The notes below the pieces were generated by a model. The model saw nothing but the letters and a program-made list of their open reading frames with translations. It was not told the DNA's origin and made no database searches. A program made the translations under genes and the position numbers. Below are positions 1 to 13,711 of a DNA stretch of 22,161 nucleotides, in pieces (positions within the stretch are counted from its first letter, which is position 1; each line of letters starts with the position of its first letter). The stretch spans positions 1 to 22,161 of IMG/VR virus record IMGVR_UViG_3300034019_001589, one strand, 5' to 3'. The DNA is from a virus.

Positions 1-3000
1 TTCCAGCGACCATTGTGGTTCTTCAGCATCAGATAGAAAGAATTCGCGTTTGATGTGGCATTATTGCCCAGCTTTCCATATTCGCCTTTGGTAGCTGTTC
101 TGGCTTTGTCCACGATGGTTTTCCATTGTTCCTTTTTGAGTTTGAAGGCTCCATCAATGGAGTTTTGAATTTGCTGGATGACCTCCGGCTGCAAGACAAG
201 CCGCATCCACAGGGCCTCCTGATCAAGTGGCGGGAGTTGTTTGGAGAGCGTGCCCCATAGGTGGTGCAGCGCTGTGACAAACTCGGTGGGTTTTTCGCCG
301 ATCACTTGGCGCATTTCGACAACGCTATCGAGCCCAGCCATCGCGGCGTCCCGCGTGCCTGAGACGGTGCGGGGCCCGTGGAATCCGCCATCCAGTAGGG
401 CGATGAAATCCTTTGGCCGCTTGAGCATCATGTCGATTCCGCTCGGAGGGACCAGGATGTTTTTGGTGACGCCGGCGTTTCGCATGATTTCGGCGTATCC
501 CTTGGGGTCTGTAAATTTGAAGGGGTCGTTGGTAATTACTTCAGTCGCCTTGTTTACTTGTTCAATAGCGGCTACGACCTTGTCTCTGTTTTTTACCGCT
601 TCGCCGATGAAGTCCTTGTTGCCGAGAGAGAATTTTGATTTTGCGAGTTGATAATTTGGAAGGGGAAGATCGAAGTTTCCTGGCTGAAATTTCACTTCGG
701 TATTATCGCGCAGCTTCGGAGTCATGCCCTCCTTTTGCTTGCCCTTTTTATCCAGCACAGGCTTGCCTTTGTCATCGAAAAGTTTCTCACGAATCATCAC
801 GCGGACGATAGGCACCGACTTCGCTTGGGGGATTGTCTTGGGCAGGGATTTTGCTGCTGTTGTGTAAAGCTGCGTCATCGAACCCGCGGGCATGTCGATA
901 CCTTTGTCCGGCACCGCATCCGGCATGGCTTGGCCGGGAGTGGGTCTTGTTGTTCCTGACACAAAAATGTCATCTGGGTTGTCAGTGAGCCAAAGTTTTT
1001 TGCCATTGATTTCCGTGACTTTTGGATTCCTTAAAAAGGCTTCGACCACTACAGGGTTTGCGGGCTCGTTTGTTTTGCTTGCAGCGGCACGAAGCCGATC
1101 ACCGAGGTCATTTGGAATCTTGTCTGCAATCTCGTCGAAATAGATTCCCAAGCTCTCAATGTCGTCTACATAGCGAGAATTGAATTCTGGCAATTCAGTA
1201 GAGTCTGCAAACCCATCCACTTTTAAGCCGTTGTCCATTCTGCCTGCGAGCTCTCGCATGACATCATTTGCGGTATCTACTGCGGACTGTGCGGAATCAA
1301 TTTGATTGGAAGCGTAGCCTTTTGCTGACTCGACATTATCGGTGAAAGAAAAACCACCTCGAGACAGGCCCGAGTTTCTTGCCCTATATTTCAGATCAAA
1401 TTTTTGGCCCTTAAAGTCAGGGCTGCCATGATAAACGGGGCCAACCAATCCCTGGCGCTTGGCTTCATTCGGCGTGATAGTTACATCCGGCATCGCTTGG
1501 CCTTTAGGCGTTGGCAGGTCTTTCGACAAGTCCGGCATGGCGGCGGGGATGTTTGGCAGGAGGTTGCCGTTGGCTTTGTCGTAGTCGAAGTGGAAGCCTT
1601 GGCGGCCGGTGCCTACGGCGGCGTCCACGCGGTCGAGGCGGAATTGTTTGATGGCGCTGCCGGGGCCGAAGGCTCCGTTGAGGGGGTTTTTGCCTCGGTT
1701 GTAGTTGGTGGCTATGCCGACGAGGGAATTGAGGGCGTCGCGCTTGGCGGTGCCGATTTTGTTTTCGCCTGGGAGGTTGTTGCGGTGGTTATCCATCCAC
1801 TGCTTGAGGTCGGTTTCGACCTGGCTGAGTTCCCAGTTGAAGGGGGCGAGGAATTCGCTGCGGTCGTTGATGCCTCGCATAGCGCGGTTGCGGAATTGGG
1901 TGAGGTCAAGGAGGACGGCGTTGAGGTTTCCGGCTTTGGTGAGCTGCCACTCAAAGGGGAGCACCTCGCGGGTGATGGCTTCGAGGTTGCCGAGTTTCTT
2001 GACTTGGAAGGCACCAGAATCGCCACTGCCGATGGCGTGGTAGCGGACCTGCATGCTTTCGCCTGTCTGGCCGAATTGCTCGAACTGGCGGGCGAAGTTG
2101 CGGATGTGGGGCATGAAGCCGTTGAGAAAATCGAAGGACTGCGGGAGCAGTTTGCCGCGAACACGGGTGATATTTGAATTTTTGTCTTTTCTGGGTCCGA
2201 GGTAGGGATCGTTATCTGGACGCAGTTTGGATCCGCCGAGGGCGCGGAGTTGCTCGCGAACCTTCTTGTGTTCGGCGTTGAGGTCGCGCTGGTCGCGGAG
2301 AATGGCTTGGCCGGTGACGGGATCCTGGATGGCGAATGCGTTGGCTTTTACTCCGTCGCCTCGGTCGTAGAATGTGACCTGAGGATTGTTAGCGAGGTCG
2401 CTGGCGCGGCCGCTGGGGGCGATCTTCACGCCGGCAGGTTTTTCGTGTGTGGGGTTGTTGGCCCACTGCCGGTAGTTGTTGATGTAGGTGCCGAGCTGGC
2501 CGAGGAGCGCTTTGTCGGTGGCGAGGAGGGGGTTTTCTTTGAAGAGGCTGCCGGGGGTGTCAAGCGGACGGCCGGTCTGGCCGTCGATGCGGATGCCGCT
2601 GGCGGTGAGAGATCGGGCTTGGGCGCCGAGGATGCCTTCAGCAAAAGTGAGGAAGTTTTCGCCTGCGGGTGCGCCTCGGCGGATGGCTGCGAAATCCATG
2701 GACTGGCTGGCTTGAGCGAAGGTCTCGGCGAAAATCTCGTCACGGGCCCAGTCGAGGCCGTCCATGTCGCCTCGGGCGAGTCCGCCTTGGCTGAGGTTCT
2801 CCATCTCGCTGGACAGCGTAGTGGGAGTAATCTCGAAGTTGCCGTCGGGGAAGGCGCTGGCGTTTTTGCCTCGGATGATGTTGCTGGCGTATTCGCGGGC
2901 ACGGGCTTGGACACCTTCGGGGCCGTAGGTTTTATCCACCCAGGCTCGGGCGGCGTATTTTTGCTGTCCATCGAGGGCTCCGCTGGCGAGGAGGGCGTGG

Positions 3001-4985
3001 CCGAATTCGTGAGGTTCGATGCCGGTGCGCTTGGCGTCGAGGTTGATGAAGACCTTGGCGCGTTCTCCAGGGGCGGATTGAACAAAGAGCCCGGCAGAAC
3101 CTGCTCCGCCTTGCGCTTGGACATTGGCGTTGTAGTCGGTGGAGTTGAGCGGGACGAAGTCGAGGGCGTTGCGGAAGGTGCCCTGCATGGCGGCGAGCTT
3201 GACGAGGCTGTCGGGTGTCTGGGTGGACATCATTTTACTGACATCACCACCGTTAAGTTCGACATCGACGAGCATGCGGGAGACATCACTGATGGCGGCT
3301 TGTTGGCGGCGCTGCTGGAGGCCGGTGAAGCGCTGCACGCCACCGCCTGCGGCACCAAATGCTGCGCCTGCTCCAAGTATGGCAGCGGCTTCTTCGTCGT
3401 CGCCTGCGTTGGCTGCGAGTAGCGAGAAGGGGGCGTTGATGGCGGCACCTTTCACTGCGCCTGTGGCGACTGCGCTGGATCCTCGCACTGCTTGGACGAT
3501 GGCGGGGTTGGAGAGTTTGCTGGCGAGGGCTCGCATCTGCGGGGAGAGGGCTTGATTGGCAGCGAGGCGGGCGGGGGTGCTCTCGATGCTCACGAATTGG
3601 CTGGGGCGCTCGAGGACTTCTTTGAAGGCTTGGGGCACGGCGTCGTTTGCGAGCACAGCGGCTCGGGCGGCTTGGTCGAGGCCGTTGGTGGCGTCGGCGG
3701 ATTCGCGGAGGATGATTTTAGCGGTGCCTGCACCGGTCTCGATTTTGCGGAGCACGCCGAAGCCTGCTTTGTAGACGGGGTAGAACCCGGCGATGGTAGC
3801 GGCTAACTCGGGGGGAGCCCCCACTGCGGCGGCTCCTGCGGCAATGCCACCGCCGATGCCGACATTTTTACCGAAGTTGAGGACTTTGCCTGCGGCAGAG
3901 ATGTCACGCGGCGTGAATCCTGTAGCGTTGGTGACGACATTGGCAAAGCGCTCTGCGAGGGCGTCGTTGCCTTTGACGAAGCCGCCTGCGACTTTTTCCA
4001 CAGCATTGGCTGCTTCGGAGCTCAAAACCTTCATGCCTCGGGATAGGCCAATGGCTTTGGCTCCGGCACCGAAGGGGATAAGGTTCGTAGGGTCGGCGAC
4101 CATTTCGATGACGCCGGCCTGCGACAAGTTGGGCGTTTCCTGCTGGCGGCGGCCGGTGGTGAGCATGGTGAGAAGCTCGGTGGGGGCGGTCTTGGTGGCG
4201 AGGTCTTGGTATTCGGCATCGATGCCTTTTTTGGCGATGTAGCCTTCAAATTCGTGGTCTTTGAGATCGTCCTCGGTGGTGGGGCGGAGCTTGCGGCCGC
4301 TCTCAAGGGCGTTCTGGAGTTGGACCTCGTTGTTGTAGAAGAAAAACTCGCCGGTCTCTTCGTCGCGGTATTTGGGGGCGCCTTGAATTCCTTCCTTTAC
4401 CCATCCGCCAAGCTGCATGGCGCCAAGGGCTGCGCGGCCGATGCCGGTCTGGAGTGTGGCTGGCGATTTCGCGATGGTCTCAAGTGGCGAGTAGACGGCG
4501 GTGTTGAAGGCATCCAGCGCTGTGACGACAAGGCCGCCCACTGCCTGTGCTGCGAGCTCGGCAGTGCCGGGGATTTTGCCTTCCGATTTGAGGCGTTCCT
4601 TGGTGGCCTTGAGCTCGAAATACTCGTCGCGGGTGGGTGAGTAGGTCGGGTCGTCTAAGGCTGCGACGGCTTCTTGGTCCAACTGCTCGCTGGTGAATTC
4701 TTGCGGAGGCGGAGGAGTGGAAGACTTTTCAAGGACATCAATTTCCTCGGTGGTGTATTCACGGGCCTCAAGCTGGGCAACGGGGCCCATGGCGGGTCCG
4801 CGGGCAGGAAGTGCCCCCTCGCCGGTGATCAGTCCGGGTGAGCCTGTTGGGTCAGGCGCTGTGAGTGTGCTTGCTACGGGAGCAGAGGCCGTTGGGGGAA
4901 GAGGCTCCTGCACCGGCAGCTCGGCGGCTGCCAGGGCATCGAGTTCATCGGATGTGAATTCTCTAACGGGGGATCCAGTTGCCAT
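1..4985 (-). CDS. Giant polyvalent/ejection protein: zincin and ADP-ribosyltransferase-like domains, 3'-partial
   Basis: One frame stays open from the ATG at 4985 to the window edge: 1661 codons with no stop, so the end is missing. In order: a Pro-rich N-terminus with three [RQ]E[FY]T[ST]xxxD motifs (8, 75, 95); helical regions with Gly/Ala-rich, possibly membrane-active segments (about 376-412, 533-549); a zincin motif HEFGH (659-663) with a second acidic stretch DEIFAE (749-754) as possible third ligand; and an ADP-ribosyltransferase-like domain (about 1175-1345) opening VYHGSPDF (1184) and GGFSFTDN (1210) then AKGYA. A further domain (about 1357-1661) is not identified. Such multi-enzyme 'polyvalent' proteins are injected with phage DNA. 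From about 1530 downward the DNA is AT-richer. It has no Shine-Dalgarno sequence; the start overlaps the previous gene by 23 nt. Both enzyme activities are inferred from motifs. Confidence 0.8.
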   Translation of the reverse strand, partial: MATGSPVREFTSDELDALAAAELPVQEPLPPTASAPVASTLTAPDPTGSPGLITGEGALPARGPAMGPVAQLEAREYTTEEIDVLEKSSTPPPPQEFTSEQLDQEAVAALDDPTYSPTRDEYFELKATKERLKSEGKIPGTAELAAQAVGGLVVTALDAFNTAVYSPLETIAKSPATLQTGIGRAALGAMQLGGWVKEGIQGAPKYRDEETGEFFFYNNEVQLQNALESGRKLRPTTEDDLKDHEFEGYIAKKGIDAEYQDLATKTAPTELLTMLTTGRRQQETPNLSQAGVIEMVADPTNLIPFGAGAKAIGLSRGMKVLSSEAANAVEKVAGGFVKGNDALAERFANVVTNATGFTPRDISAAGKVLNFGKNVGIGGGIAAGAAAVGAPPELAATIAGFYPVYKAGFGVLRKIETGAGTAKIILRESADATNGLDQAARAAVLANDAVPQAFKEVLERPSQFVSIESTPARLAANQALSPQMRALASKLSNPAIVQAVRGSSAVATGAVKGAAINAPFSLLAANAGDDEEAAAILGAGAAFGAAGGGVQRFTGLQQRRQQAAISDVSRMLVDVELNGGDVSKMMSTQTPDSLVKLAAMQGTFRNALDFVPLNSTDYNANVQAQGGAGSAGLFVQSAPGERAKVFINLDAKRTGIEPHEFGHALLASGALDGQQKYAARAWVDKTYGPEGVQARAREYASNIIRGKNASAFPDGNFEITPTTLSSEMENLSQGGLARGDMDGLDWARDEIFAETFAQASQSMDFAAIRRGAPAGENFLTFAEGILGAQARSLTASGIRIDGQTGRPLDTPGSLFKENPLLATDKALLGQLGTYINNYRQWANNPTHEKPAGVKIAPSGRASDLANNPQVTFYDRGDGVKANAFAIQDPVTGQAILRDQRDLNAEHKKVREQLRALGGSKLRPDNDPYLGPRKDKNSNITRVRGKLLPQSFDFLNGFMPHIRNFARQFEQFGQTGESMQVRYHAIGSGDSGAFQVKKLGNLEAITREVLPFEWQLTKAGNLNAVLLDLTQFRNRAMRGINDRSEFLAPFNWELSQVETDLKQWMDNHRNNLPGENKIGTAKRDALNSLVGIATNYNRGKNPLNGAFGPGSAIKQFRLDRVDAAVGTGRQGFHFDYDKANGNLLPNIPAAMPDLSKDLPTPKGQAMPDVTITPNEAKRQGLVGPVYHGSPDFKGQKFDLKYRARNSGLSRGGFSFTDNVESAKGYASNQIDSAQSAVDTANDVMRELAGRMDNGLKVDGFADSTELPEFNSRYVDDIESLGIYFDEIADKIPNDLGDRLRAAASKTNEPANPVVVEAFLRNPKVTEINGKKLWLTDNPDDIFVSGTTRPTPGQAMPDAVPDKGIDMPAGSMTQLYTTAAKSLPKTIPQAKSVPIVRVMIREKLFDDKGKPVLDKKGKQKEGMTPKLRDNTEVKFQPGNFDLPLPNYQLAKSKFSLGNKDFIGEAVKNRDKVVAAIEQVNKATEVITNDPFKFTDPKGYAEIMRNAGVTKNILVPPSGIDMMLKRPKDFIALLDGGFHGPRTVSGTRDAAMAGLDSVVEMRQVIGEKPTEFVTALHHLWGTLSKQLPPLDQEALWMRLVLQPEVIQQIQNSIDGAFKLKKEQWKTIVDKARTATKGEYGKLGNNATSNANSFYLMLKNHNGRW
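918..935. repeat. Direct repeat flanking the ART-like domain, copy B
   Basis: The 18-bp sequence ATCCGGCATGGCTTGGCC on the plus strand matches 17 of 18 bases of copy A at 1485-1502. On the coding strand both encode GQAMPD in frame (residues 1351-1356 here). It lies on the far side of the ADP-ribosyltransferase-like domain, 567 nt (189 codons) from copy A. Confidence 0.8.
1485..1502. repeat. Direct repeat flanking the ART-like domain, copy A
   Basis: The plus strand reads ATCCGGCATCGCTTGGCC and encodes GQAMPD at residues 1162-1167. A further partial copy (AAMPD) lies a little upstream in the coding direction, near 1531-1543. With copy B it brackets the AT-richer ADP-ribosyltransferase-like domain. 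Confidence 0.8.
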
Positions 4986-5790
4986 TGGGTTGTTGGACGA
5001 AAGTTTGGCCGCGGATGACGCGGGTGGCGGGTTGCTGGGGTTGTGCGGGGGCGGCTTGAGGGCTTGCTGGCTGTGAGCGTGCTTGGGCTTGAGCGAGGAC
5101 GCCGTCGAAATCCATGAGGGCCTTGTTGAATCCGTCTTCCGTTTGGCGTGGGTTTAGTCGAGCGATGGCTGCGGTGGCTTTGGCGCCCTCTTGCTCGGTG
5201 ATCTGGCCGGCACCTTTGAGGTTGTTGAAGGCTTGCATGAATGTGCCGCCTTGGACTTGCTCCAGCAGAGTGTAGAAATCGGCGGCTTTTGTTCCGCTGA
5301 ATGGCTCTTTGTTAATACCGAAAAGGTATTCGCTTCCTTTAGCACCGACCGATGCGCTCATGCCTGCGTGGCCTTTTAATTCGGCCAGCATGGATCTCAT
5401 GCCGGCGATCTCTGTGGCTGCGGCTTGCTTGCGGGATTCGACCTGCGCGATGTCGGCTTGGGATTTTTTAAGGTCAAGTTCGGCCTTTTGAATATCGAGC
5501 TGCGCTTTTTCAGCTTGGGCTTGGGCTTGGGGAGTGGACTGCTCTAGGAGGCGGGTGTTGAAGGTCTCGATGAATTCGGCTGCTGCTTGCGGGGTGTATT
5601 GGATGCCCTGCTTCATGTTTCGCAGGAGTTGCTTTTGGGACTCTGGCAACCGGGCGAAATCCTCGGCGGATTGCACGACGATGCTGCCAAAGTCAAAGCT
5701 GTTGCCTTTGGATGCCTTGGGCGGCGGTGGAGGCACGGCGCCGGCGATCTGATAGTTTTGCGCAAAGGCTTCGAGTTCGGAGGGGTCCAT
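4963..5790 (-). CDS. Ejection-type helical virion protein (275 aa)
   Basis: This 275-residue protein is Gln/Ala-rich and helical. Residues about 88-140 are a predicted coiled coil (AEKAQLDIQKAELDLKKSQA). Residues about 165-230 hold SGTKAADFYTLLEQVQGGTF, MQAFNNLKGAGQITEQEGAK, a motif I recall in many phage structural or transglycosylase-linked proteins. The short C-terminal part (TRVIRGQTFVQQPNGNWIPR) also looks conserved. It lies directly before the giant polyvalent protein and overlaps its start by 23 nt. Position and composition suggest an internal or ejection protein; I see no catalytic motif. It begins MDPSELEAFAQNY, 4 nt after the preceding stop. Confidence 0.6.
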   Translation of the reverse strand: MDPSELEAFAQNYQIAGAVPPPPPKASKGNSFDFGSIVVQSAEDFARLPESQKQLLRNMKQGIQYTPQAAAEFIETFNTRLLEQSTPQAQAQAEKAQLDIQKAELDLKKSQADIAQVESRKQAAATEIAGMRSMLAELKGHAGMSASVGAKGSEYLFGINKEPFSGTKAADFYTLLEQVQGGTFMQAFNNLKGAGQITEQEGAKATAAIARLNPRQTEDGFNKALMDFDGVLAQAQARSQPASPQAAPAQPQQPATRVIRGQTFVQQPNGNWIPR

Positions 5791-5794
5791 ATTA

Positions 5795-6316
5795 TTATTG
5801 CACGAAGTTCATGTTGATCCCGCCGGCGGGGTTGGCCTGTGGCTGGGCTGTGGGGGCTGCTGCTGGCACTCCGGTGTAGGGCTGCTGATTCGGAGCCGGT
5901 TGCTGGGCGAGCATGTTGGCGTTCACGCGGTTGGCTTGGGCGTTGTATTGGGTCTGATACATCCAGCGCTTGAGGTCGTGATCCATGACAGATTCAGCCG
6001 TTGAGACCATGCCTTGCCGTTTGCCAAGCGGCATGGTGTCGAATTTATCGATGGTTTCTTTGGTAAATAAGGGTGAACCGTCGGTTTTTGTGTAGTCCTT
6101 CAGCATGTCGAACTTGGCGTTGACGCCGTCCGAAGCGATGCGGTTTTCGGCGGCCTTGGTGAAGCCTCCAGTGACGCCGCTAGCTAGACTCGTCACTCCG
6201 CTGGCGATACCTTTAGCCAGGGCTTCGTTGCCAGCGGCGGTGATTTGGGATGCGTTGGTTTGGTATCCGGCGAGGATTTCGCCGGAGCGGTCGTTGACTG
6301 AGGGGTTGTATGGCAT
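5795..6316 (-). CDS. Ejection-type/internal virion protein (173 aa)
   Basis: This 173-residue protein has an Ala/Gly/Ser-rich helical N-terminal half (ITAAGNEALAKGIASGVTSL) typical of small phage proteins that pass through membranes. A charged middle (FDMLKDYTKTDGSPLFTKET) and a Pro/Gln/Ala-rich tail (QQPAPNQQPYTGVPAAAPTA) follow. No known domain is recognised. It sits between the YkgJ-like gene (4 nt gap) and the 275-aa protein (4 nt gap), within a cluster of ejection-type proteins. I infer a structural or DNA-ejection role. It lacks a Shine-Dalgarno sequence, so coupling is likely. Confidence 0.58.
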   Translation of the reverse strand: MPYNPSVNDRSGEILAGYQTNASQITAAGNEALAKGIASGVTSLASGVTGGFTKAAENRIASDGVNAKFDMLKDYTKTDGSPLFTKETIDKFDTMPLGKRQGMVSTAESVMDHDLKRWMYQTQYNAQANRVNANMLAQQPAPNQQPYTGVPAAAPTAQPQANPAGGINMNFVQ

Positions 6317-6320
6317 GGGA

Positions 6321-6614
6321 TTAGGTGGGGAGGTTTTTGGATTGGCGGGCTTCTATGCAGAGTGGGCTGCCTGGCTGGAAGGCTCGGCAGGCATTCGGAC
6401 GGTGTTCGTAAATTGCGCAGGCGACTCCTCGGCCCACCTCGCCACGGAGGGCGATGCAGCGTCCGCAGGGGTCGGTTTTGAGAAGGGGGTAGTCGGTGCG
6501 GAGGTATTCGGCAGGGATGCCGGTGGCGTCGGAGCGGTCGCGCCGGAGCACGGGCCAGCTCCAACGGTGCGAGCAACATGCGCCACACCGTTGACAGTCG
6601 TATTGGGATTCCAT
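6321..6614 (-). CDS. YkgJ-like cysteine-cluster protein (97 aa)
   Basis: This 97-residue protein starts MESQYDCQRCGACCSHRWSW. Cysteines at 7, 10, 13, 14, 50, 53, 66, 76 and 86 form the CxxCxxCC...CxxC...C...C pattern of YkgJ-family proteins, which are thought to bind zinc or Fe-S clusters. The tail YEHRPNACRAFQPGSPLCIE is also typical (P-x-x-C-R-x-F). The gene lies in the -1 frame relative to the PP-loop gene, and its first 262 nt overlap that gene's C-terminal end. It ends 4 nt before the next start. The two are probably an accessory pair, because PP-loop enzymes often work with metal clusters, but a joint function is inference. I see no ribosome binding site beyond CAAGG. Confidence 0.7.
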   Translation of the reverse strand: MESQYDCQRCGACCSHRWSWPVLRRDRSDATGIPAEYLRTDYPLLKTDPCGRCIALRGEVGRGVACAIYEHRPNACRAFQPGSPLCIEARQSKNLPT

Positions 6615-7447
6615 GTGGGTTTGAAGCCTTGCTCTGGGATGGAGTTGTCTTCGTAGGGGGCGAGGTGGGCGATGCTGTTTACCTCGCTGCGGAGCTTGGG
6701 GCACCACACGGGGGCGGAGAGGTGGCGGTTCACGCAGTTCCAGCAGATCGGGTAGTAGTCTGCGTTGTGGGATTTGTCCTGCTTGTGGCCCCACTTGCCG
6801 GAGGCGCGGTCGTAGCGGGTGGGGTCCATCGGGACGCCTTCGGCTTCGAGGTAGTCGAAGATGTCGTCGTCGGTCCAATGCCGCATGAGGAAAAGCTGGG
6901 TCGGGCTGTCATCCACACGGCGCACATCCTGGGCGAGTGGGACGCCGCCTTTGATGAGATCGACATCGGCGCTCTTCTGCCCGTGGAAAGCGGCATCCCA
7001 CGGCCAGTTGAACGAGCCGGTGGGGCGCTGGAGGACATCGGTGAGGCCGCACAGGTAGGGCTCGCCTTCCTTGGGGTGCTCGGTGCCGAGGCTGAGAACC
7101 AGGGCGCTGTGGTGGCCCCATTGATAGTATTTGAGAAAGTCGAAACGGGGTTCGCCGGTTTCGATGTCGAACCCATCCTGGATGGCGATGCGGCCGGGAG
7201 CGTAATCGAAGAGGGTCAAGTCCCACTCGCGGGCGAGGAGGTCGCTGTGGGCGTAGCGATGGCGGAAGCGAGGTTCACGCCACTGCACGCAGGGGAGCCG
7301 CACGCCGAGCTTGAAAATGAGGAGGTGCAGCATGGCGGTGCTGTCCTTGCCACCGCTCCAGAGGACGACGGGGTTGCGAAATTCCCGTAGCCAATACTCG
7401 GCTCGGGTCAGGGTTTCATCGACGAGGTTTTGCAGGTGTTGGTTCAT
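6353..7447 (-). CDS. PP-loop ATP pyrophosphatase, PAPS-reductase-like
   Basis: This 364-residue protein belongs to the PP-loop superfamily, which activates substrates by adenylation. The loop SGGKDST is at 31-37, following VVLW. HWTDDDIFDYLEAEGVPMDP (190-209) is the W-x-x-x-D-I/x-x-Y-L feature of PAPS reductases and related proteins. A Cys cluster (C235, C238, C249) near the end could bind a metal or Fe-S cluster. The start shares one base with the preceding stop. Residues from about 278 to 364 overlap a second gene in another frame and are Pro/Ala/Thr/Ser-rich, unlike the rest. The conserved core therefore seems to end near residue 277, and the natural stop may have been lost. Likely chemistry is sulphur or nucleotide modification, perhaps of nucleic acid; the substrate is unknown. 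Confidence 0.72.
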   Translation of the reverse strand: MNQHLQNLVDETLTRAEYWLREFRNPVVLWSGGKDSTAMLHLLIFKLGVRLPCVQWREPRFRHRYAHSDLLAREWDLTLFDYAPGRIAIQDGFDIETGEPRFDFLKYYQWGHHSALVLSLGTEHPKEGEPYLCGLTDVLQRPTGSFNWPWDAAFHGQKSADVDLIKGGVPLAQDVRRVDDSPTQLFLMRHWTDDDIFDYLEAEGVPMDPTRYDRASGKWGHKQDKSHNADYYPICWNCVNRHLSAPVWCPKLRSEVNSIAHLAPYEDNSIPEQGFKPTWNPNTTVNGVAHVARTVGAGPCSGATAPTPPASLPNTSAPTTPFSKPTPADAASPSVARWAEESPAQFTNTVRMPAEPSSQAAHSA

Positions 7448-9039
7448 TAAATAGCGAGAGCGGTCATGCCGAGGACCATGCCGCCAGCGGCGATGCCGGA
7501 GCCCATCATGGAGTTTTGCGATGCGCCTGCGGTGGCACCGGCTTGGATTCCGGCACCTCGGAGGGCGGCTTGGTTGTTTTGGAAGCTGTTGTAGCGGGAG
7601 TCGAGCATGTTGGCGTTGAATTGGTTGTTTGCGTTATTCATTTCAGTGACGCCCATGCCAATTTGAGCCGATGGGCCGAGCGCGGCGGTGCCGAGATTGT
7701 TAGTGCCGAAGAAATTTTGCTGACTCATTCCGAGGTTGCGGAAGAGGGGGTTGTAGGTCGAACGGACATTTGCCATATCCACGGCGGCGGTCATGCCAGC
7801 GCGGCGGGTTGCATCGACATAGTTACTGGCTTGCCCGAGCTGGTTAAGAGTTTGTTGGACTGCGCCGAGGCGGTTTTGCTCGTTGGCGGCTTGAGCGCGG
7901 AAGTTGTTTTCGACATTGATGCCGCCTGCTGCCAGTTGGTTTTGCTGGTTCTGGAATTGACGGCCTAAGTCGTTTTGTAAAACATTTTGGGCAAACCCGA
8001 GGTCTTCCTGTTGGCGTTGGCGGGAGAAGCGGTCGCGGTTGAGCATTTCGACTGCCATGGCAGACTGCCCGATCCCGAGGCCACGGGCTGCCATTCCGGC
8101 GCGAGCAGATTGCAAGGCGTCGCGTTCTTGCTCAGGGGTGAGTCGCCCTAGCGAATTGGCTTTATCCATGGCCTGCGCGTAAAGGGCTTGCCCGAGCGGG
8201 CCCGCCTCCACCGAAGCGACATTGACACGCTCTTGTTGGATCGGAGCCGCTTGGTAGCTTTGCTTCGCTTGGTCTAAAAATTGCTGCCCCTGCTCGGTGA
8301 TCTTGCCGAGTTCTTGGGCGTAGGTATCTGCTAAATCAAGATATTCGTAGGTGTAGGGATCGGCCTCGTAATAAATGTCATCGATGCTTGGACCTTGCAC
8401 ATTGAGGGCGTTATTTGAATCCTCGATGGCTTTGTTGTATTTTTCTAAATTGCCCTTAAACCCTGTTAGCTTTGATTGGGCGCCGGTTAATTTCGATTGA
8501 AGGGAAGCAACTTTTTTGGACGACCCGCTTTCGGCGATCTTTTGCTGCTCATCGCGCTTCGCTGTTGTTGATGCAACTTGCTTTTGCAGCGTTTTGTATT
8601 GCTTCGAGTCAGGTTTAGCAGAAGCCAATTTTGAATTTAGGCTTGTTAATGTTTTATCGAGCTTGGAGACACTTGCCGCTGCGGCGGCTTTAGTTTTATC
8701 TGTTGTTTTCGCAATAGACGATTCAAGTTTTGCAATGCCTTTCTCAGTGGATGAGATTTTTTTGTTTGTTGAACCTACAAGTTTTGTATTGGTATTGATC
8801 GTTTTGTTGAAACCAGCAGCCGCCGCCGGGTCCAATGTCATGCTTCGACCGCCGGTCTGCAAATAATTTGCCAGAGTGTAATTGCCTAGATTAACCCCCT
8901 GCAAATTTGCATTAGATACTGCATTGGCAAATTGCGGAACGCCTTTGGCAATGCTTGTATAAGTTTGCCCTAAATTAATTTGCGGAATAGGCTGCGCTTG
9001 CGGTGGGGCGGATTGCTTATTCTTAGATTTCTTAGCCAT
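7447..9039 (-). CDS. Ejection-type internal virion protein (530 aa)
   Basis: This 530-residue protein resembles podoviral internal/ejection proteins. It begins with a basic, Pro/Gln-rich start (MAKKSKNKQSAPPQAQP). Residues about 80-215 form a Lys/Ser/Thr-rich coiled-coil segment. The middle is Gln/Ala-rich and helical (LTPEQERDALQSARAGMAAR, then FSRQRQQEDLGFAQNVLQND). The tail is glycine-alanine-methionine hydrophobic (GSGIAAGGMVLGMTALAI). The last feature would suit membrane insertion during DNA delivery. Its stop shares one base with the next start (TAATG). The coiled-coil part is encoded by AT-richer DNA (about 8395-8800), which looks like an inserted module. No enzyme motif is visible. 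Its exact role is inferred from composition and position. Confidence 0.6.
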   Translation of the reverse strand: MAKKSKNKQSAPPQAQPIPQINLGQTYTSIAKGVPQFANAVSNANLQGVNLGNYTLANYLQTGGRSMTLDPAAAAGFNKTINTNTKLVGSTNKKISSTEKGIAKLESSIAKTTDKTKAAAAASVSKLDKTLTSLNSKLASAKPDSKQYKTLQKQVASTTAKRDEQQKIAESGSSKKVASLQSKLTGAQSKLTGFKGNLEKYNKAIEDSNNALNVQGPSIDDIYYEADPYTYEYLDLADTYAQELGKITEQGQQFLDQAKQSYQAAPIQQERVNVASVEAGPLGQALYAQAMDKANSLGRLTPEQERDALQSARAGMAARGLGIGQSAMAVEMLNRDRFSRQRQQEDLGFAQNVLQNDLGRQFQNQQNQLAAGGINVENNFRAQAANEQNRLGAVQQTLNQLGQASNYVDATRRAGMTAAVDMANVRSTYNPLFRNLGMSQQNFFGTNNLGTAALGPSAQIGMGVTEMNNANNQFNANMLDSRYNSFQNNQAALRGAGIQAGATAGASQNSMMGSGIAAGGMVLGMTALAI

Positions 9040-12281: not shown

Positions 12282-12728
12282 CTACCTTCTATTCTGCGGA
12301 TGGTTGTCAAGGAGGGCGCGGATGGCTTTAGCGCTGATGCGCGGCTCGCCTTTGAATCGCATCAGGTCTGCAAGTTGGCTGGGGGTCTTGCCGCGATGGC
12401 GGGCGAGGACGGCTTGCACCCGGTCGAGCAAATGGGCCGGAATGCCTGCGATGGCTTGGGGCGAGGATTTGGCGGGCTTGGGGGTGCCGGGCTCGATGAT
12501 GCGGTAGCAGGTGACTTGCACGGGGCGCATGGTGGCGGCGTCCCAATCGCTGAATTTTTTAGTCTCGATGTCGCGGGCTTCGATGGCGTCGCGCAGGAGG
12601 TCGTGGACATTGCGCTCGGGGCAGCCGAGTTGGCGGGCGGCTTGCTGGCGGGTGAGCCATCCTTGGTTTGCGGGGATGCCGTATTTGAGGGCTTTGTGCT
12701 TGAGGGCGATGGCGGCGAGTTTGTTCAT
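12282..12728 (-). CDS. Helix-turn-helix DNA-binding protein (148 aa)
   Basis: This 148-residue protein has a winged or simple helix-turn-helix near its N-terminus. WLTRQQAARQLGCPERNVHD (24-43) has the classic helix-turn-helix spacing, with a turn glycine before the recognition helix. The C-terminal half (IPAHLLDRVQAVLARHRGKT then PSQLADLMRF) is a second helical domain that could also bind DNA. It overlaps the phosphoesterase gene by 4 nt and touches the next gene directly (TAGATG). It may regulate late genes or take part in DNA packaging, for example as a small-terminase-like protein, but nothing shows which. The call rests on a visible motif only. Confidence 0.62.
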   Translation of the reverse strand: MNKLAAIALKHKALKYGIPANQGWLTRQQAARQLGCPERNVHDLLRDAIEARDIETKKFSDWDAATMRPVQVTCYRIIEPGTPKPAKSSPQAIAGIPAHLLDRVQAVLARHRGKTPSQLADLMRFKGEPRISAKAIRALLDNHPQNRR

Positions 12729-13711
12729 GCGGACTTGGGTTTGAGGAGGAGACTGGCGTAGCTGGTGCCTTCGTTGATGGTGACATTCACCATTTGGAAG
12801 TTGCCGGTCTTTTTACTGATGAAGCGGACGAGGTAGCCATGCGTCCACTCGGTGGGGCGGGTGTTGGCGTAGAGGGGCTGGCGTTTGCACAGGCAGCCGG
12901 GGTTCCATGCGGAAATGAGGCCAACGCCTGGGAGGTGCATGGGCTTGTAGGCGGCGCGGTGGGTGTCGAAGAAAACGATATTCGCAGCGGCCTTGGCCAT
13001 GGCTTGTCCAGCGGCGTCGCGGGCGTTGCTGATTTTGTGAACGAAAAATGCCTTGTCGATTTTTACCCAGCCTGGCGTGTCGCAATCGCCGTGGGTTTTG
13101 CCCTGGTGGTAGTAGCGGATGCCTCGGTCTTTGAGCCTCAACACATGCTCGGGGCAGAAGGTGCGGCGGAGCAGGTCGGTATCCTTGTGGTGAGCGAGGC
13201 GTTGGGTGAGAGCCCATCTCTCGACGCGCCACTCATGGTTTCCCTCGATGTAGTGGCATTCGGAGGGCGAGGCGGCGGCGAGGATTTGGTCGAGCAGGGA
13301 ATTGCTGACAGCGATGTCGTCCTCGTAGGAATCCTCGGTCTCGGCGACATAGCCGAGCGTGTGGTGCTCGGCGAGGAAGCCGCCGCAGTCGATGTAATCG
13401 CCGCCGATGATGAGGCGGTCGGGGTTGAGGGATTTGAGATCACCGAGGAAAGCAGCCATCGCGGCGGGGTCGTGTTTGTTGCCGTGGACATCGGAGAAAA
13501 TGACTTCGATGATGTCGCCGGTTCCGGCCTTCGATGTGGCGGGCGTGACCTTGCGCGGGGCTTTGGTGAAACGCGAACGCTCCAGAGCCTTGATCGTTTC
13601 GGCGTGGGCGCGGCGCTCGGCTTCGAGCTGGGCGCGGGCTTGGGCTGCTTCGTTCTGCGCGGCGGTGACTTGGCTGGCGTGAACGATGTTTTGCAGTTTG
13701 TTAGTTTTCAT
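12725..13711 (-). CDS. Calcineurin-like metallophosphoesterase
   Basis: This 328-residue protein has a coiled-coil N-terminus (about 15-47, Ala/Glu/Arg-rich) and then a metallophosphoesterase domain. The dimetal motifs are in order: D74-x-H76 (SDVHGN), GGDYID (103-108), GNHE (157-160), then His225 and His251 (FFDTHR, in place of the usual GHTH/GHSH). Likely substrates are a phosphodiester or phosphomonoester in nucleic acid or nucleotide metabolism; the family is too broad to say more. The start at 13711 (MKTNKLQN) is backed by a GAGGAGG site 7 nt upstream and a 4-nt overlap. An upstream in-frame ATG at 14032 would add about 107 residues overlapping the preceding gene in low-complexity form. 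It also overlaps the next gene by 4 nt. An enzyme among late structural genes is unusual. Confidence 0.82.
   Translation of the reverse strand: MKTNKLQNIVHASQVTAAQNEAAQARAQLEAERRAHAETIKALERSRFTKAPRKVTPATSKAGTGDIIEVIFSDVHGNKHDPAAMAAFLGDLKSLNPDRLIIGGDYIDCGGFLAEHHTLGYVAETEDSYEDDIAVSNSLLDQILAAASPSECHYIEGNHEWRVERWALTQRLAHHKDTDLLRRTFCPEHVLRLKDRGIRYYHQGKTHGDCDTPGWVKIDKAFFVHKISNARDAAGQAMAKAAANIVFFDTHRAAYKPMHLPGVGLISAWNPGCLCKRQPLYANTRPTEWTHGYLVRFISKKTGNFQMVNVTINEGTSYASLLLKPKSA

Follow-up and report, generated by a model that had tools for sequence, protein, structure and literature searches.

The stretch of DNA analysed here (the window) is the IMG/VR record IMGVR_UViG_3300034019_001589, a viral sequence of 22,161 bases with no further contig, and the features that concern us are collected in Table 1. 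The larger protein of the pair carries the ATP motif SGGKDST at residues 31–37 (S31 to T37) and cysteines at positions 53, 133, 235, 238 and 249, plus one in its C-terminal tail. It scored 22.1 bits against Pfam PF01507 (PAPS_reduct), for which the cut-off of 22.5 is passed by its relatives L213, L192 and L129 (36.3, 35.8 and 29.0 bits), and it matched PHROG 424 and 2302, which carry the name PAPS reductase. The smaller, 97-aa protein (window 6614-6321(-)), which begins MESQYDCQRCGACC, scored 37.6 bits against PF03692 (CxxCxxCC), above the curated cut-off of 23. The ATG of the PP-loop gene shares 1 nt with the stop codon of the upstream gene, which we call gp14-like, and the 275-aa ORF matched phrog_2534, described in PHROG as ‘released from the phage upon host infection’ (E 5e-15). 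The original prediction had placed a PP-loop protein with C235, C238 and C249 beside a YkgJ-like neighbour in a run of virion genes; its coordinates and residues were right, translation and Pfam confirmed the CxxCxxCC neighbour, and the flanks are indeed virion-type, the phrog_2534 match included. A calcineurin-like metallophosphoesterase (PF00149, E 2e-7) lies elsewhere in the window, at 12725-13654 (-), between tail-region genes.

Table 1. Positions of the PP-loop/CxxCxxCC pair and of its flanking genes in the window.
Feature	Position	Strand	Basis or remark
Upstream virion-type gene (gp14-like)	7447..9039	(-)	Gly-rich hydrophobic C-terminus
PP-loop (AANH/PAPS-reductase-type) protein, 364 aa	6353..7447	(-)	Translation, Pfam, PHROG, alignment, fold comparison
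PP-loop C-terminal tail, ~86 codons	6353..6614	(-)	Overlies the CxxCxxCC gene in another frame
TAG stop of the PP-loop frame	6353..6355	(-)	Within the CxxCxxCC gene; formed by [ACT]TA|GAA
CxxCxxCC (PF03692) protein, 97 aa	6321..6614	(-)	Translation, Pfam, alignment A6
173-aa gene, downstream edge of the slot	5795..6316	(-)	Same frame as the PP-loop ORF
275-aa ejection-type protein (phrog_2534)	4963..5790	(-)	Used as flank marker
Giant protein, N-terminal part	3..4985	(-)	Continues beyond the end of the record; flanks the ejection module on the right

The core of the PP-loop protein was modelled by AlphaFold with a mean pLDDT of 87, and the top Foldseek match of the model was CysD (1zun; E 3e-6). 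The VIA-align Z values were 13.8 for CysD, 13.3 for APS reductase and 13.2 for FAD synthase, followed by PAPS reductases (near 11), TtuA (11.0), NcsA (10.3) and LarE (10.2), and a profile search of PDB sequences with the family agreed with this ranking (CysD 48.8 bits, CysH 25.7). The fold class and the SGGKDS ATP site are thus held in common with CysD, the APS/PAPS reductases and a domain of human FAD synthase, whereas the phage protein departs from CysD and the reductases in its extra C-terminal CxxC-x10-C, in lacking ECG[LIVM]H and in forming a separate clade. Both the SGGKDS motif and Cys133, Cys235, Cys238 and Cys249 were invariant in 25/25 aligned family members (L202, for which the reference held a stop, was left out of alignment A5); Cys133 lies ahead of the CxxC, and the third cysteine of the cluster 11 residues past it. 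ECG[LI]H is the C-terminal catalytic cysteine motif of CysH. Because ECG[LIVM]H was absent from all 13 family rows, and was found in E. coli CysH as a positive control, the PP-loop protein is, as judged by the motif examined, not a sulphonucleotide reductase. Its scores against the NCBIfam CysD models were 33.7, 30.3 and 28 bits, where the cut-offs are 195, 413 and 396.6. In a 31-row tree, the deeper order of which is unsafe owing to long branches, the family formed its own clade (support 100/99), apart from CysD, CysH, DndC and the Lessievirus-type protein considered below. The natural reading of the PP-loop protein would be that of a metal-dependent adenylating enzyme.

In the small protein, eight cysteines (C7, C10, C13, C14, C53, C66, C76 and C86) are invariant across alignment A6; its predicted structure was unusable (pLDDT 48), and full-text literature searches returned no described function for the CxxCxxCC family. 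It has all its motifs in common with YkgJ-type PF03692 proteins, the phage form being distinguished as a single domain of 90-100 aa that is tied to the PP-loop gene. The two genes were found together in many independent viral contigs, with PP-loop identities down to ~36%, and the pair in the window is therefore not a chance arrangement. Exceptions among the loci selected by cassette are L129/L130, which have the PP-loop gene alone, and the L132-type contigs, in which a small gene stands between the two; in these contigs, runs of small genes starting MGG surround the pair (L132: 4839-5270 and 5551-7356), and one of these is the gene that lies between. Searching 50,697 phage records by tblastn with either protein gave no useful match at 1e-5, and motif-level or unrelated matches only at E values up to 10.

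One relative, L134 (G014 C4), is a contig of a metagenome-assembled genome (MAG) titled Chthoniobacter flavus, with an SMC gene, phage genes and, on one side, chromosomal genes. This contig makes a Verrucomicrobiota host likely, a chimeric contig being possible, and it may represent a phage integration. Among 288 genomes of the same phylum, that MAG alone held the PP-loop family (482 bits); the next matches reached at most 36 bits, mostly to the PP-loop N-terminus of ~300-aa ORFs, five of which group with CysD in the 31-row tree. An integrase (PF00589) occurs in 9/17 related phage records. A cysteine desulfurase (PF00266) was found in 0/17 of these records and in 14/14 control genomes; host enzymes could serve in its place.

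The two ORFs share 262 nt in different frames, the PP frame being the -1 frame, a feature absent from the original prediction. Scans of viral contigs gave 55 loci with the PP-loop protein, 80 of 140 with the PP-loop profile and 80 of 222 with the CxxCxxCC profile, and the unique pairs fall into discrete classes according to the position of the PP-frame stop relative to the CxxCxxCC motif: +244 (44 pairs, including that in the window), +115/118 (36 pairs), +94 (three pairs) and about -8 to -11 (10 pairs, ‘G0’, from which L193, with a broken PP frame, was left out), while L213, at +68 and in another phase, makes a class of its own. In all 44 unique relatives of the +244 class the PP frame remains open through the CxxCxxCC gene up to a single TAG, formed by CTA, ATA or TTA followed by GAA (44/44). 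When base changes were counted on a tree (L081 being left out of these step counts), the first base of the TAG-making codon had changed 10 times and the third not at all, whereas in the +115 class, whose PP frame stops before this point, the first base of the homologous codon had changed once and the third 12 times; elsewhere in the CxxCxxCC gene it is the third positions that change most (3.42 steps versus 1.41 and 0.90). In the window, this TAG alone parts the 173-aa gene from the in-frame PP-loop ORF, and in 22/44 pairs of the class no second stop separates the PP ORF from the downstream virion gene, which is read in the same frame, so that loss of the TAG would fuse the two proteins. Given this reversal of codon changes and the risk of fusion, translation of the PP frame appears to run as far as the TAG, with selection keeping this stop.

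The open frame alone is not proof of this, and we rejected it as such, since roughly one synonymous shuffle in two leaves the frame of a single sequence open (fractions of 0.34 to 0.76 across 12 sequences). We likewise rejected the idea that the tail sequence is conserved and functional: third positions of the CxxCxxCC gene in the +115 class change as often inside the overlap (2.14 steps) as outside it (2.00), and the tail amino acids thus look unconstrained. We also considered a programmed -1 frameshift fusing both proteins, and rejected it because inspection by eye revealed no X-XXY-YYZ heptamer near the junction in the window, because the small gene has an ATG 4-6 codons ahead of the motif in 40/44 pairs, and because the two genes are almost separate in some AT-rich relatives. 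In the other four pairs of the +244 class (L021, L025, L026 and L028) CTG stands in place of this ATG, and an unusual start codon or another route of expression is possible for their small gene. Some AT-rich relatives have a PP gene that terminates in ..TWNK* immediately before the CxxCxxCC motif, so the long PP tail seems to have arisen by stop loss, and the 262-nt overlap with its selected stop clearly illustrates how a gene tail can come to extend across the adjacent gene.

The pair occupies a slot between the gp14-like and 173-aa genes, and relatives without it carry in this slot a YcaO gene, sometimes a gene for a ThiS-like protein (ending GG), and a TfuA gene. Pfam identified these proteins as YcaO (PF02624; E 2e-60 to 6e-67), TfuA (PF07812; 1e-30 to 3e-36) and ThiS (PF02597; 3e-8), and among NCBIfam models those for McrA-glycine thioamidation ranked first for the phage YcaO (184 bits, cut-off 365) and TfuA (133 bits, cut-off 235), in both cases short of the threshold. 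For a census of the slot, contigs were chosen by their flank genes (275-aa, portal and 173-aa) rather than by cassette, and were merged by contig name. The 31 readable slots comprised 17 with PP-loop plus CxxCxxCC, 12 with YcaO plus TfuA (some with the ThiS-like gene), two that were empty and none with both; three further slots were cut off. By query, the 275-aa gene gave 26 loci, with both pair genes in 16 and neither in 10 (nine YcaO plus TfuA, one cut off), and the 173-aa gene gave 15. The portal query, for which 28 of 70 loci, those on larger records, were considered, gave the PP-loop gene in seven and the CxxCxxCC gene in eight, the eighth (G311) having this gene at the contig end with the PP gene cut; of the others, six had YcaO, one was empty and 13 had no assembled slot. 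Selecting by TfuA instead gave 31 loci, with YcaO in 30, ThiS in 13 and the PP-loop pair in none, and the two kinds of cassette were together in 0/390 loci, a total with many overlapping copies. The PP-loop and CxxCxxCC genes are therefore one accessory cassette, gained and lost as a unit. In the empty slots, L458 (1887-4490) and G324 (L386), the gp14-like gene is followed directly by the 173-aa gene.

Slot states do not cluster on the portal tree: at least six changes are needed among 15 records (shuffled mean 5.9), and the starred branches alone force at least three, so the cassettes are exchanged often between close relatives. The YcaO-TfuA cassettes in phage ejection operons were seen at L276, L278, L281-L285, L287 and L289, and at L419-L447; the phage YcaO had a match in a single annotated phage record, to a YcaO of the E. 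coli type, and no paper on phage YcaO-TfuA was among the literature matches listed. Neither YcaO nor TfuA had a match in the window, so the pair there is an analogue and not a member of the YcaO-TfuA family.

The upstream gene also differs between the two types. The gp14-like protein of G327 (YcaO type) matches its counterpart in G001 (PP type) at about 85% along 350 aa, beyond which it has ~70 further residues, beginning ACWIARAAFG, a domain that we take to be CFI-box-like; NCBIfam returned no family for two gp14-like proteins that have it. This domain was present in 30/31 TfuA-selected loci, the remaining one (L448) starting inside TfuA, and in 0/82 genes upstream of PP loci (a set that includes the non-members L135 and L137 and a wrong ORF for L028), PP-type proteins ending instead in a Gly-rich, hydrophobic stretch. 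We rejected it as a strict marker of YcaO-TfuA, because L458 combines an ACWVAR-type domain with an empty slot; the other empty slot has the Gly-rich end. With the domain present in one type and missing from the other, the substrates of the two cassettes need not match.

We tentatively favour, at somewhat less than even confidence, the reading that the pair is one accessory cassette acting as an ATP-dependent sulphur-insertion module, its likeliest target being the backbone of an ejection-module protein. The PP-loop protein would adenylate a substrate oxygen and swap in sulphur, with C133/C235/C238/C249 as the probable metal site for the replacement; the CxxCxxCC protein would be a metal-binding partner, whether a sulphur or electron carrier or a substrate adaptor; and the likeliest product would be a backbone thioamide, or a comparable thiolated group, on an ejection-module protein that the phage encodes. 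The argument for a sulphur role is that YcaO-TfuA is exchanged for a PP-loop protein with a cysteine cluster, as would be expected if both insert sulphur with ATP, and a protein thioamide is the likeliest form because the characterised relatives of the YcaO-TfuA(-ThiS) set that fills the same slot thioamidate protein backbones. The exchange suggests, by analogy, that the two cassettes serve similar functions, and by position the proteins of the ejection operon are the first candidate substrates; on the other side, mutual exclusion within one slot can follow from flank recombination alone, and PP-loop genes lacking a CxxCxxCC partner, in L129/L130 and in the Lessieviruses, also count against this reading. 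A stronger form, in which two unrelated thioamidation machines are swapped in the ejection operon and place backbone thioamides in an ejection protein, perhaps in the gp14-like tail, we regard as unlikely, at about one chance in five; it would mean that a virion or ejection protein is modified with sulphur, and by a new type of protein-thioamide synthase. The thioamidation reading is nevertheless plausible by analogy, precise and testable.

The closest chemical precedent is CtaC, an Fe-S PP-loop/AANH ATPase for which backbone thioamidation was reconstituted with ATP and sulphide, and mutations of the PP-loop or of the cluster cysteines abolish or lower activity (PMC6772006). CtaC and the phage protein are both PP-loop/AANH-type proteins with cysteines, which in the phage protein may serve an Fe-S site, and its conversion of amide to thioamide is the one proposed here; however, it acts on non-ribosomal peptides bound to a carrier protein, with no CxxCxxCC partner in the portion of that report available, and its cysteines C154, C157 and C284 run CxxC...C, with the pair first, whereas in the phage protein C133 precedes CxxC-x10-C. 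YcaO-TfuA is reported to be required for the thioglycine of McrA (PMC5589413); this system, the type that fills the same slot in close relatives, would share with the pair ATP-dependent sulphur insertion into a backbone, although its proteins are unrelated to those of the pair. The pair in the window appears to be a new, phage-specific variant of the PP-loop sulphur enzymes with a CxxCxxCC partner.

PP-loop genes also lie at this place in other phages. The PAPS reductase-like gp65/gp67 of the Lessieviruses JC1, DC1 and BcepIL02 stand between virion-associated genes before a giant protein, although their sequence is distant, their cysteines are an APS-reductase-like CC plus CxxC, and they have no CxxCxxCC partner; gp66 of JC1 has no cysteine cluster. 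JC1 virions contain gp64, gp67, gp68 and gp69, with gp65 not listed in the part of the source available (PMC9144972), and since neighbours of the PP-loop protein are listed and the protein itself is not, the enzyme is probably no part of the virion. Such placements suggest that PP-loop enzymes are more widely associated with ejection modules. A different PP-loop ‘PAPS reductase’ between virion genes was seen in JC1, BcepIL02, DC1 and Manatee Spring virus MW202711 (L236, L237 and L238).

Of the other explanations, thiolation of nucleic acid stands best, though we consider it unlikely, at perhaps one chance in five: the PP-loop protein would thiolate tRNA or phage DNA in the manner of TtcA/TtuA/MnmA or DndC, and the CxxCxxCC protein would serve as its Fe-S or sulphur carrier. 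TtuA, NcsA and TilS are among its structural neighbours and a PP-loop with metal cysteines fits such a role, as does the example of DndC, another PP-loop protein in an operon for sulphur chemistry, with a 4Fe-4S centre on three cysteines (PMC10853773). The phage family, however, lies outside the four DndC rows in the tree and matches DndC at 11 bits only, is nearest by profile and structure to CysD, APS reductase and FAD synthase, comes from phages with no desulfurase in the 17 records, and alternates in its slot with a system for protein-backbone sulphur. Slightly less probable is that the slot is a generic cargo site, where unrelated morons without common function are swapped by flank recombination. 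A shared slot by itself gives exclusion, the empty slots imply that neither cassette is essential, and a GNAT and a different PP-loop gene fill the same region in the Lessieviruses; yet all 29 filled slots of the census hold one of two ATP-dependent sulphur-insertion-type sets, where a random slot should vary, and the genes at this place in the Lessieviruses and in MW202711 are again PP-loop proteins. Counter-defence or host takeover, with the pair altering a host small molecule or sequestering metal so as to block defence, is improbable to a greater degree, at around one chance in eight: fast turnover of accessory cassettes is a usual mark of defence conflicts and weak PADLOC matches include DndC and QueC (E 0.03 to 0.05), but these matches are at motif level only, the pair lies inside a late ejection operon rather than in an early region, and no defence or anti-defence family was found. 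An ordinary auxiliary gene of sulphate assimilation (a PAPS/APS reductase or the small subunit of ATP sulfurylase, as the usual phage ‘cysH’ annotation would have it) is very improbable, for the near-threshold PF01507 score, the PHROG names and CysD as the closest solved structure are outweighed by the missing ECG[LIVM]H, CysD-model scores far below cut-off, the separate clade and the alternation with YcaO-TfuA.

The interpretation originally offered for the pair is thus partly supported. Its description as an accessory pair among ejection genes holds, given joint gain and loss and a slot that is empty or otherwise filled in close relatives, and neither of the two outcomes that would have told against it came about: the family forms its own clade and lies inside neither CysD nor CysH, and both genes occur together in other phage contigs. 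Of the roles proposed, sulphur transfer is favoured because the alternative content of the slot is YcaO-TfuA, with or without ThiS; nucleobase modification and protection against host defences have nothing specific in their favour, with no desulfurase in the 17 records and the family outside DndC.

Phage ‘PAPS reductases’ are widely counted as genes of sulphur metabolism. A single slot filled by different sets of enzymes amounts to a natural exchange experiment, and it offers an independent hint to the job of one such PP-loop family. If the preferred reading of protein-backbone sulphur insertion is true, it would establish a PP-loop route to protein thioamidation, would supply the CxxCxxCC family with both a partner and a reaction, and would raise the question of why an apparatus for DNA ejection needs sulphur chemistry.
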